Positions 25,304-40,717 of a stretch of DNA of 48,155 nucleotides are shown here, piece after piece. Position numbers and translations under genes: made by a program. Position 1 is the first letter of the stretch. Each line of letters begins with the position of its first letter. The notes under the pieces were generated by a model. The model had not been told where the DNA came from. It did not search any database and saw nothing but the letters and a program-made list of their open reading frames with translations. This DNA is from Bacteroidota bacterium (lineage in GTDB: Bacteria > Bacteroidota > Rhodothermia > Rhodothermales > UBA10348), in contig JAJCYQ010000047.1 of assembly GCA_029262835.1 (NCBI GenBank), forward strand, positions 1 to 48,155, given 5' to 3'.

Positions 25304-25464
25304 GAAGCGTGTTGACAAACCATCGCACACCCTCCTGAGGCGGCGAAACGCCATCTGCCGCGTTGTCCCTCCTTCGAATAGCACCACTATTCGGCGTCGG
25401 GACGCCTTGCATCTGGCATTCCGGCGCTCGCATCCTGGCGCACGCTGGTTCGTCAACACGCTTC
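25304..25464 (-). repeat. ~161-bp dispersed structured repeat, copy A
   Basis: Terminal 13-bp inverted repeats GAAGCGTGTTGAC (25304-25316) and GTCAACACGCTTC (25452-25464) are perfect. Inside are a 14-position helix (AACC...GGTT ends), a CGAATAG/CTATTCG hairpin and a GGCGTC/GACGCC hairpin. The core is shared with copies at 34059-34223 and 36562-36722. The strand on which the helix makes G.U pairs is the minus strand here. It fills most of the 296-bp spacer between the small gene at 24902-25195 and hemH. Confidence 0.85.
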
Positions 25465-33962: not shown

Positions 33963-34058
33963 TCGGGGATGGTCCGTGTCGGTCCGGAGGCGGTGAAGAT
34001 TGTGTAACGATGCCCAATTCGTTGCGGGGCGTCCGGTGAATCCCTATTTTCACGGTTC

Positions 34059-34223
34059 TATATGCCCGATGGAGAACCAGCGCGCGCCAGAATGCGTGAG
34101 CCGGAATGTCAGATGCAAGGCGTCCCGACGCCGAATAGCAACGCTATTCGAAGGAGGGACAACGCAGCAGATGGCGTTTCGCCGCCGCAGGAGGGTGTGC
34201 GATGGTTTTTCATCGGGCATATA
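34059..34223 (+). repeat. ~165-bp dispersed structured repeat, copy B (inverted relative to A and C)
   Basis: The outer 13-bp arms are TATATGCCCGATG (34059-34071) and CATCGGGCATATA (34211-34223), perfectly complementary to each other but unlike those of copy A. The core is the same: closing helix 34075-34088 with 34194-34207, GGCGTC/GACGCC hairpin, and CGAATAG/CTATTCG hairpin with loop CAACG. In the helix one U.G pair of copies A and C becomes C-G. It lies 17 bp upstream of tRNA-Gln on the same strand, in the 278-bp spacer after the DmpA gene. Confidence 0.85.
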
Positions 34224-34225
34224 TA

Positions 34226-34236
34226 CCCCTTCGGGG
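34226..34236 (+). promoter_or_regulatory. Small CCCC-TTC-GGGG hairpin before tRNA-Gln
   Basis: CCCCTTCGGGG can close as a C(UUCG)G tetraloop on a 3-bp stem, or as 4 bp with a 3-nt loop. It sits between repeat copy B and the tRNA 5' end and might help tRNA 5' processing or end transcripts entering from the repeat. Confidence 0.3.
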
Positions 34237-34240
34237 ACTC

Positions 34241-34311
34241 TGCCCGGTCGTCTAATGGCAGGACAGCGGCCTTTGAAGCCGTATGTGGAGGTTCGAGTCC
34301 TCCCCGGGCAA
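34241..34311 (+). tRNA. tRNA-Gln (anticodon UUG)
   Basis: A 71-nt cloverleaf. Acceptor TGCCCGG pairs with CCGGGCA, giving the U1-A72 pair typical for tRNA-Gln. The D-arm is GTCT/GGAC, the anticodon stem GCGGC/GCCGT, and the loop CTTTGAA has anticodon TTG. The T-arm is GGAGG/CCTCC with loop TTCGAGT, and the discriminator is A. CCA is not encoded. It is followed after 52 bp by prs, so the two may share a transcript. Confidence 0.95.
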
Positions 34312-34363
34312 CAAAGGTCTGGCAGAAGACCGAGAAGCCGAATTGCCCATATTTCGCGTATCC

Positions 34364-35992: not shown

Positions 35993-36562
35993 GTGTCCAC
36001 GAAGCGATTCATCATAGGTCTGGGAAATCCAGGCTCTGAGTACGCGAAGACGCGACACAACGTTGGTTTCGAGGTCGTGGACGCGGTAGCCGGGCGACTC
36101 CGGGATGTATCTTTCTCGCAGAAGGGGCAGTCGGAGGTGGCCGAGTCGCGTTGGCGCGGCCGGCACATCGGATTGGCCAAGCCGCAGACCTACATGAACC
36201 GGAGTGGTCTGGCGGTCGAGGAGCTTGTGCGCCGGCACGGACTGGACCATCAGGACCTGCTGGTAATTGTCGACGATATCCATTTGCCGTTTGGGAGAAT
36301 CCGTATCCGGCCTTCAGGCGGCAGCGGCGGACACAACGGGCTGGAAGACATCGGCGACTGGCTTGATGGGGACGACTTTCCGCGCCTCCGATTCGGTATC
36401 GGGTCGGAGTTCGACGAGGGGCGGCAGTCCGGTTATGTACTTGCCCCGTTCAGCGAAGATGAGCAGACGGACCTGGAGCGGCTCGTGGGACATGCCCGCG
36501 ATGCCGCTCTCGCATTTGTGACCGATGGGCTTCAGACCGCCATGAACCGCTATAACCTCTGA
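35993..36562 (+). CDS. pth: Peptidyl-tRNA hydrolase
   Basis: A 189-aa Pth that releases peptides from prematurely dissociated peptidyl-tRNA. Motifs: FIIGLGNPGSEYAKTRHNVGF with Asn and the catalytic His in TRHNVGF, LAKPQTYMNRSG, IVDDIHLPFGRIRIRPSGGSGGHNGL with the catalytic Asp region, and RLRFGIG. Start GTG 35993 places the G-L-G-N-P-G loop at the correct distance. The stop codon's last base is the first base of repeat copy C, so the element sits directly after the gene. Confidence 0.94.
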   Translation: MSTKRFIIGLGNPGSEYAKTRHNVGFEVVDAVAGRLRDVSFSQKGQSEVAESRWRGRHIGLAKPQTYMNRSGLAVEELVRRHGLDHQDLLVIVDDIHLPFGRIRIRPSGGSGGHNGLEDIGDWLDGDDFPRLRFGIGSEFDEGRQSGYVLAPFSEDEQTDLERLVGHARDAALAFVTDGLQTAMNRYNL

Positions 36563-36722
36563 GCGCGTATAGAAAAACCATCGCACACCCTTCTGCGGCG
36601 GCGAAACGACATCTGCTGCGTTGTCCCTCCTTCGAATAGTACCACTATTCGGCGTCGGGACGCCTTGCATCTGTCATTCCGGCGCTCGCATCTTGGCGCA
36701 CGCTGGTTCTTCAACACGCTTC
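36562..36722 (-). repeat. ~161-bp dispersed structured repeat, copy C
   Basis: Same orientation and core as copy A. The right terminal arm TTCAACACGCTTC (36710-36722) differs from copy A at one of 13 positions, while the left arm (36562-36574) matches its expected partner at only 8 of 13, so the outer stem has decayed. The CGAATAG hairpin and the GGCGTC hairpin are intact. It directly abuts the pth stop codon and occupies most of the 260-bp spacer before hppA; the remaining 100 bp before hppA shows nothing I can name. Confidence 0.85.
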
Positions 36723-36822
36723 TGAATTATTGGTTAACGGGTGTAAGGTGCCTCCTTGCCCCCTATTTTCCCGGATCTTATTCAACCCGGAATATCATCA
36801 ACCCGAATACAACCCACTCACC

Positions 36823-38992: not shown

Positions 38993-40717
38993 ATGGCGAA
39001 AGTTGAAGTGACCATGCCCAAGATGGGCGAGAGTATCACGGAAGGCACCGTAATTGAATGGCTCAAACAGCCGGGCGATACGGTCGAAATGGATGAGCCG
39101 CTGCTGGAAATTGGCACGGACAAGGTCGATACGGAGGTCCCCTCGCCGAATGCGGGTGTGCTCTCGGAAATTCTGGTGGAGGCGGGCGATACCGTAGAGG
39201 TCGGTACGGCCATTGCCATCCTCGAAACCGATGCTGACGGCGCGGGTGGAGACGGGCAGGAGGCGGCCGCAGAGCCGGCGCCTGAACCTGAACCTGAGAC
39301 GGAGCCTGCCACTGAAGCTGCTCCCGAGCCTGAACCGGAGCCGGCCGCTGAAGCCGCGCCCGAGCCCGAGTCGGCGCCGCAGCCGGAGGCGAAACCGTCC
39401 GCACCGGCTGGTGGGAAGCGCGTTGAAGTCCACATGCCCAAGATGGGCGAAAGTATTACAGAAGGCACGGTGCTTTCATGGGCGAAGAAGGTGGGAGACG
39501 CCATTGAGCTCGACGAAACGCTGCTTGAAATAGCGACCGACAAAGTGGACACGGAAGTCCCGGCCCCTTCGGCGGGCGTGCTCCAGGAAATCTGTGTAGA
39601 GGAAGGAGAAACCGTTGAGGTGGGCACGCTGATAGCTGTTATTGGGTCCGAAGCGCCTGCCGAGGCCGTTCCGGCTCCGGAGCCGGACGATCAGAAACCA
39701 GCCGCAGCACAACCTGCCGAGCCGGCCGGACCCATTACCCGGACCGACGACGAAGGGCGGTTCTATTCGCCGCTCGTGCGCTCCATTGCTGAGGCCGAGG
39801 GCGTTTCGATGTCCGAACTGAAGCAGATCAAGGGCTCCGGGCGTGATGGTCGTGTGACGAAGACCGACCTGATGACGTATCTGGAATCGCGCGGCAGCGC
39901 GCCAGCGCAGCAGCAGCCGTCGGCTGCCGCTCCGGCAGCGAAGGCCGCGGCGAAAAGGGCGGCGGCGAGCGTCGCATCTACAGGAACAGCCGCGTCCGGG
40001 GACCGGGTGGAAGTGGTCAAGATGGACCGCATGCGGCAGATCATTGCCGAGCACATGACGCGTTCAAAGGCCACGAGTGCGCACGTGACGTCGTTTGCCG
40101 AGATCGATGTGACCAACCTCGTCCGTCTGCGCGAGAAGAACAAGGCGGCATTCCAGAATCGGGAGGGTATAAAATTGACGTACACGCCGTTCTTTGTACA
40201 GGCGGCGGTGCAGGCGCTCAAGGAGCATCCTATTCTGAACAGCTCGGTCGATGGCGATACCATTGTGTACCGCAAGGACTTCCATATCGGAATTGCGGTA
40301 GCGATTGGTACGAGCGGGCTGCTCGCTCCAGTCATCCGCGATGCCGGGCAGCGTAATCTGACGGGGCTCGCGCACGCGACGGCCGATCTGGCGTCGAGAG
40401 CGCGCAGCAAGCAGCTCATGCCCGATCAGCTCGCAGGCGGTACGTTTACCGTCACGAACGTGGGATCGCTCGGGTCCGTCATGGGGACGCCAATCATCAA
40501 CCAGCCGCAGGTTGGCATTCTGGCAACGGGCGCCATCAAAAAGCGGCCGGTCGTGATCGAAGATCCGGTCATGGGAGACGTTATTGCCGTGCGCCACATG
40601 ATGATGGTGTCGCTCTCCTATGACCACCGGGTCATTGATGGATCCATGGGGTCCTCGTTCCTGCGGGCGTATACGGATGCCCTCGAGGGATTGGATCCTG
40701 ATGCGGAAATTCAATAA
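38993..40717 (+). CDS. 2-oxo acid dehydrogenase E2 (dihydrolipoyl acyltransferase), two lipoyl domains
   Basis: A 574-aa E2 subunit. Two nearly identical lipoyl domains come first, with lipoylated lysines Lys44 (GTDKVDTEV) and Lys184 (ATDKVDTEV). They are separated by a Pro/Glu-rich linker (about 85-140). A peripheral subunit-binding domain lies at about 255-300 (SPLVRSIAEAEGVSMSEL), then an Ala-rich linker, and the catalytic core at about 340-574 with the SYDHRVIDG active-site motif. The lipoyl motif VTMPKMGESITEGT and the core suggest a branched-chain or 2-oxoglutarate type (SucB/BkdB) more than pyruvate. E1 and E3 genes are not in the window. Start ATG 38993. Confidence 0.9.
   Translation: MAKVEVTMPKMGESITEGTVIEWLKQPGDTVEMDEPLLEIGTDKVDTEVPSPNAGVLSEILVEAGDTVEVGTAIAILETDADGAGGDGQEAAAEPAPEPEPETEPATEAAPEPEPEPAAEAAPEPESAPQPEAKPSAPAGGKRVEVHMPKMGESITEGTVLSWAKKVGDAIELDETLLEIATDKVDTEVPAPSAGVLQEICVEEGETVEVGTLIAVIGSEAPAEAVPAPEPDDQKPAAAQPAEPAGPITRTDDEGRFYSPLVRSIAEAEGVSMSELKQIKGSGRDGRVTKTDLMTYLESRGSAPAQQQPSAAAPAAKAAAKRAAASVASTGTAASGDRVEVVKMDRMRQIIAEHMTRSKATSAHVTSFAEIDVTNLVRLREKNKAAFQNREGIKLTYTPFFVQAAVQALKEHPILNSSVDGDTIVYRKDFHIGIAVAIGTSGLLAPVIRDAGQRNLTGLAHATADLASRARSKQLMPDQLAGGTFTVTNVGSLGSVMGTPIINQPQVGILATGAIKKRPVVIEDPVMGDVIAVRHMMMVSLSYDHRVIDGSMGSSFLRAYTDALEGLDPDAEIQ

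Follow-up and report, generated by a model that had tools for sequence, protein, structure and literature searches.

How can two copies of one short element each end in a perfect inverted pair when the two pairs differ from each other? The question arises in a contig of a Bacteroidota bacterium (order Rhodothermales; JAJCYQ010000047.1), analyzed here over a window that comprises the whole stretch of 48,155 nucleotides. Copy B ends in TATATGCCCGATG (34059–34071) and CATCGGGCATATA (34211–34223), and copy A in GAAGCGTGTTGAC (25304–25316) and GTCAACACGCTTC (25452–25464). The initial annotation described each of these as a perfect 13-bp inverted pair, different between the copies and surrounding a conserved inner core; all of this holds, and the A and B cores are approximately 90% identical. 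About 0.1 perfect 13-bp inverted pairs with arms 60–200 bp apart are expected per shuffled window, and A and B are among a handful of such pairs in the window, the remainder being GC-rich repeats. Two readings had been offered: either compensatory change maintains the outer stem of an RNA, or the element inserts into the loops of host hairpins. The answer that we consider very probable is that copy B is a MITE insertion mobilized in trans by a helper of the IS5/IS1182 type, with variant terminal inverted repeats (TIRs) and an older, separate core.

Three Copies of One Element

A, B, and C are copies of one non-autonomous transposon (MITE) of 159–161 bp. Copy C (36563–36721), absent from the initial annotation, has a degraded left end (GCGCGTATAG), so not every copy has perfect ends. 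The family alignment reveals TIRs that start within the 13-bp arms. The arms do pair over their full length, but their outermost bases are target duplication and lie outside the element (CTAT/ATAT in copy B, TTAG/CCAG in copy A). The features of the window, with their sources, are:

34062..34220, + strand: copy B, a 159-bp MITE (161 bp with the duplication taken as TA); empty sites in the congeners G001 and G003, family alignment
34062..34077, + strand: left TIR of B, ATGCCCGATGGAGAAC; in-register alignment with 27 other copies
34205..34220, − strand: right TIR of B, reverse complement ATGCCCGATGAAAAAC; alignment
34058..34061, unstranded: left target duplication of B, CTAT; target duplication analysis
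34221..34224, unstranded: right target duplication of B, ATAT (one mismatch to CTAT); target duplication analysis
34098..34185, + strand: conserved folded core of B, a match to the R2 model (74.1 bits, E-value 1.3e-14) and one of its 49 rows
25305..25463, − strand: copy A, the same MITE, with TIR AAGCGTGTTGAC; family alignment, no copy in G001 and G003
36563..36721, − strand: copy C, the same MITE, its left end degraded; alignment, empty sites in G001 and G003
36559–36562 and 36722–36725: target duplication of C, CTGA; empty site TCTGA in G001 and G003
34241..34312, + strand: tRNA-Gln(TTG) gene, outside the element and given for context; ARAGORN, Rfam tRNA

Empty Sites and Target Duplications

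Both congeners keep the gene order of the window and lack all three copies. At the position of copy B they read ...GTTC TATA CCCCTTCGGGG..., running directly into the tRNA-Gln gene; the site is a plain ...GTTCTATACCCC... without a palindrome, relative to which the net insertion is 163 bp. At copy C both read ...AACC TCTGA ATTATT..., and at copy A the congener flanks align around a gap, with a junction less exact than those of B and C. These empty sites establish mobility. Because they contain neither the arms nor a palindrome made by them, the arms must have come with the element. This bears directly on the proposal that the element enters the loops of existing terminator hairpins, so that the arms would be host target and only the inner part the element. 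Unlike arms around a conserved core in A and B are what such insertion would produce, and it predicts empty sites that are plain hairpins. However, the sites in the two congeners checked are not hairpins; moreover, the arms of B align in register with the TIRs of other copies, and the GCCCG end variant is found again at unrelated sites. We therefore reject a host palindrome as the target and regard it as extremely improbable.

The target duplication is 4 bp long and CTAG-like, typically CTAG, TTAG, CTAT, CCAG, or TCAG. In 24 pooled copies, the four bases flanking each side agree at 67 of 96 positions, higher than in any of 5000 shuffles (mean 51.3, standard deviation 3.2), and the duplication is perfect in seven of the 24. 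Copy B by itself is fitted equally exactly by a 2-bp TA duplication and a 161-bp element. A TA-only duplication was rejected nevertheless, since C (CTGA), L105 (CCAG), and similar copies are fitted better by 4 bp.

Two of the insertions lie close to genes. The tRNA-Gln(TTG) gene begins 20 bp downstream of the end of copy B (34058–34312), so the tRNA transcript may include the hairpin of copy B as a 5′ leader. The insertion point of copy C coincides exactly with the stop codon of a gene (36559–36725) that, by our own reading of the open reading frame, is peptidyl-tRNA hydrolase-like; its TGA stop is retained through the CTGA duplication.

Variant Ends within the Family

The genome of the window holds about 20 near-complete copies of the MITE as well as fragments, and several of its contigs end within copies. 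Its common TIR is AAGCGTGTTGAA(G/A)AACC. Variants in the same register carry GCCCG (L003, L004) or GCGTG (copy A) and, elsewhere, GTCCG or GTGCG (G001), GCCTG (G012), and GGCTG (G002, G019). Copy B has its own variant, ATGCCCGATG, with a unique GCCCGAT; no second instance of its exact end type was found in four congeneric genomes. The outer ends of the copies, which the initial annotation had proposed comparing, are mostly matched but variant TIRs, although those of several copies are mismatched. TIR type and core kinship disagree: L004 (GCCCG) is 3.1% distant from A (GCGTG) and 5.4% from L003 (GCCCG).

A few copies deserve separate mention. One end of L004 (1490–1680), ACGCCCGCTGA, is identical to the host sequence just past the far duplication (CTGG ACGCCCGCTGA), including two non-consensus bases, and was possibly converted by it. 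Four loci (L039, L047, L053, L127) belong to a second MITE family of 229–291 bp that has the same TIR and a diverged core, with relatives in G002. In L018, L055, and L044, TTGCGCCGGTATCGGCGCAA takes the place of the apical hairpin while the remaining core is unchanged. Elements of approximately 270 bp (L185, L200, L238, L263) seem to have a second, inverted core-like hairpin (GCGTTGCGCTCCTTGTCGAGACGG...).

A Candidate Helper

Among autonomous IS elements, one shares its ends with the MITE: a 1,466-bp IS in the congener G003 (L135, 1300–2765), flanked by AAAGCGTGTTGAAC and AAAGCGTGTTGAAA, with the same TIR. The overlap between the two comprises just the terminal 13–16 bp or so. The product of the IS is a 465 amino acid DDE_Tnp_1/DUF772 transposase, which scores 176.8 against the IS5 model of NCBIfam (NF033581, cut-off 140) and 262.8 bits against the IS1182 model (NF033551), below the cut-off of 270 for membership. 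By these profiles the IS appears IS5/IS1182-like, lying between the two groups. From the common TIR, a transposase of this type likely moves the MITE in trans. The window's own genome yielded no transposase gene with the MITE TIR, and this absence may represent a loss or an assembly gap.

Several other candidates were rejected. A 762-bp TIR pair on contig C5 holds no transposase, the window's genome has no IS630-type (DDE_3) helper, and a matching TIR was not found at the other DDE_Tnp_1 loci of G003 and G000. The Aquisalimonas genome has 114 TIR matches, with no pair at IS length among the matches listed. In G001 (contig C56, L141), a relative of the G003 transposase (71% over the first 174 amino acids) precedes a different terminal sequence, TATCTAACAAAATAGTACTA, which resembles the TIR of another G003 IS (L136); ends may thus be exchanged between IS elements as well.

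The Folded Core

The core of B reads CAAGGCG-TCCC-GACG-hairpin-AGGAGG-GA-CAACG, and the general signature is CAAGGCG-N4-GACG-hairpin-AGGAGG-N2-CAACG. The whole element B folds at −96.8 kcal/mol (z −9.8) in the written strand and at −69.7 (z −5.0) in the other, and all 26 full copies have the same strand preference. The inner stem contains 157 G-T pairs against 7 A-C pairs, a count biased by the program that supplied the structure, which permits G-T. Over 49 divergent sequences, 81.2% of cells are paired compared with 30–47% when the structure is slid, covariation is very strong (0.586 compared with 0.12–0.20), and double changes occur at 22 of the 26 core pairs. When anchored on the motif only, 41 cores with less than 60% flank identity have Watson-Crick pairing well above shuffles at 13 outer positions by the motif, usually with all four pair types; by our own sums, stem pairs 1–13 contain 62 G-T and 15 A-C pairs. 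The loop bases (AAGGCG, GACG, AGGA, CAACG, and a G three positions further along) show little or no variation, which in motif-selected rows is mostly by construction, the last G and six rows from the covariance model being exempt. The N4 stem beside the loop alternates between CGCC/GGCG and CGAC/GGAG, and the positions between the loop bases can, as we read them, form tandem G-A pairs.

A covariance model of the core finds relatives with different TIRs beyond the genus, within the family and order. A degenerate pattern of the core center matches at least 119 stretches in genome contigs, where we estimate less than one match by chance. According to their record titles, the matches include Planctomycetota, Pseudomonadota, Desulfobacterota, Bacteroidota, Nitrospirota, Omnitrophota, Gemmatimonadota, Acidobacteriota, Actinomycetota, Eisenbacteria, and Elusimicrobiota. 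Judged by these matches, the core is present in at least 10 phyla, in elements with unrelated TIRs. In most relatives the two TIRs match each other and lie about as far from the core as here. One group has 4-bp CTAG duplications (TIRs TGTCCTGTCCC, TGGTGTGTCGTGGG, TGTCGCGTCAAGCC, and others); another, mostly in Betaproteobacteria, has 5-bp duplications (TIRs CCTAGAAACCGCAGTTG, CCTAGATTCGGCAGTTG, CCTTGAATCCTCAGTGG, and others). Since the duplication lengths differ, different transposases are presumably involved. In the 5-bp group the inner TIR bases vary among elements and the two ends track each other almost exactly, so the matched but copy-variable ends noticed in the window recur in another phylum.

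The core occurs, often in many copies, in 56 of 299 genomes sampled from the phylum to which the gammaproteobacterium G114, an Aquisalimonas MAG, belongs, and in six of 296 genomes of the window's own phylum, Bacteroidota, again often multi-copy. This patchy multi-copy distribution fits a mobile element rather than a housekeeping RNA. We looked for a sense-orientation bias in host transcripts and found no preference relative to the flanking genes (++ 9, −− 13, +− 15, −+ 11); a function in host mRNA is therefore not supported.

Why the Two Ends Match

What keeps the two ends of each copy alike? In the outer stem, 21 cells are changed on both sides and 36 on one side, compared with 12 and 63 in the inner stem. 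All 33 double changes retain pairing and none breaks a pair. This retention, the strand-specific fold, and the G-T excess in the inner stem are what one would expect if the outer arms changed together under compensatory selection to keep the outer stem of a transcript. Yet B, A, and L003 each carry double changes of their own in the ends, and these are transversions (A-T to T-A, A-T to C-G), which cannot proceed through a G-U intermediate, so gradual RNA compensation fits them worse than homogenization of the ends or replacement of the TIR. Mismatched ends in several copies also speak against it, as does the weakening of the G-T excess towards the ends. As an account of the ends, RNA selection seems unlikely to us. 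The initial annotation was right in that pairing is kept and the core strand is folded; its compensatory reading likely holds for the core and less so for the outer arms, which are TIRs. Alternatively, B may descend from a lineage adapted to a different helper, a transposase variant for ATGCCCGATG since lost or unsampled, and may owe its ends to that helper instead of to homogenization of a single mutated arm. The TIR subtypes GCGTG, GCCCG, GTCCG, GCCTG, and GGCTG do form groups that partly track the genome, and ends are exchanged relative to cores, but four genomes yielded neither an IS nor another MITE that ends as B does; we consider this possible but rather doubtful.

Template switching is a known mechanism by which imperfect inverted repeats become perfect (PMC8604942, PMC7202029, PMC3820800). 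Either this or the need of a transposase for equal ends may produce the match. Could it explain the core too, as decayed IS sequence shared by common descent, whose pairing reflects template switching and not function? The same papers do describe the arms of inverted repeats becoming alike. Homogenization, however, would remove G-T and A-C pairs equally, whereas the G-T pairs of one strand persist (62 versus 15), and conservation of the unpaired loop positions extends across phyla and to rows that were not selected by motif. Decay of this kind is, in our judgment, improbable.

We return to the preferred explanation, a MITE moved in trans. Copy B represents one insertion of the 159-bp element into a CTAG-like target. 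A DDE transposase of the IS5/IS1182 type would recognize the TIRs, and the helper would have to encounter an identical sequence at either end, so that the ends of each copy match; template switching at replication would homogenize the long inverted repeats. The ends would then agree within a copy and differ between copies (GCGTG, GCCCG, GTCCG, and the GCCCGAT of B) because the helper needs equal ends and inverted repeats are homogenized. The core, in this view, is a separate module of much greater age: a folded single strand, either RNA or single-stranded DNA, whose non-canonical loops are invariant. The role that we favor for it, though with the balance of our confidence slightly against it, is recognition of this folded strand by a widely conserved host factor, in a way that would aid the spread or tolerance of the element with any transposase. 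We propose just as tentatively that MITEs with different transposases have repeatedly captured one pan-bacterial folded module, read as a single strand by a conserved cellular factor; in that case the core, and not the ends, would be the lineage, a mobile RNA or single-stranded DNA module whose ends are swapped.

Relation to Known Repeats

MITEs are usually viewed as the wrecks of IS elements and are defined by their ends. The element of the window is an ordinary MITE, unusual for its copy-specific ends; what we had not expected is a pan-bacterial, strand-specific folded core carried by MITEs with interchangeable ends. With ends that turn over and an interior structure that persists across phyla, a cis function independent of the transposase becomes testable, as does the identity of any cellular factor that reads the core. 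The position of copy B, 20 bp ahead of a tRNA gene, offers a natural test of read-through, and the covariance model can now be used to annotate a widespread repeat that forms the end of many contigs.

Rfam yields no match at gathering score over the element or over its relatives in 18 loci, and a literature search by sequence and by concept, with poor coverage of subscription papers, preprints, and ISfinder, found no description of the core. Bacterial MITEs such as Correia elements, MITEAba12, and QMITE2 (reviewed in PMC10969869) are likewise short, non-coding, multi-copy, bounded by TIRs, flanked by target duplications, and able to form a stable hairpin, and they are presumably mobilized in trans by IS elements, as is the element here. 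In contrast to them, a single core is here common to elements from many phyla whose TIRs are unrelated and whose target duplications differ. IS elements of the IS5/IS1182 type resemble the MITE through the G003 IS, with its shared TIR and DDE_Tnp_1 transposase, and through the 4-bp CTAG-like duplications; unlike them, the MITE lacks any coding part, and only about 13–16 terminal bp are common to it and the G003 IS. CGTC-tagged REPs (PMC3733652) are also palindromic, occur in several phyla, have no known dedicated transposase, and carry CGTC beside the hairpin; however, they are single hairpins of 20–40 bp, whereas the present element is approximately 160 bp long and has TIRs, duplications, and a CAAGGCG/CAACG internal loop. 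Strand-specific folded hairpins are shared with IS200/IS605 and RAYT/REPIN systems (PMC6006769), where they are mobility signals. In contrast to these, TIRs and target duplications are present here, suggesting a DDE double-strand mechanism. A RAYT-style GTAG foot at the hairpin is absent from the consensus, and the element thus lies outside the REP/REPIN class, which has this foot and no target duplication.

The window also contains two direct repeats of 207 nucleotides (39002–39628), 71% identical and spaced 420 bp apart, which are apparently unrelated to the MITE.
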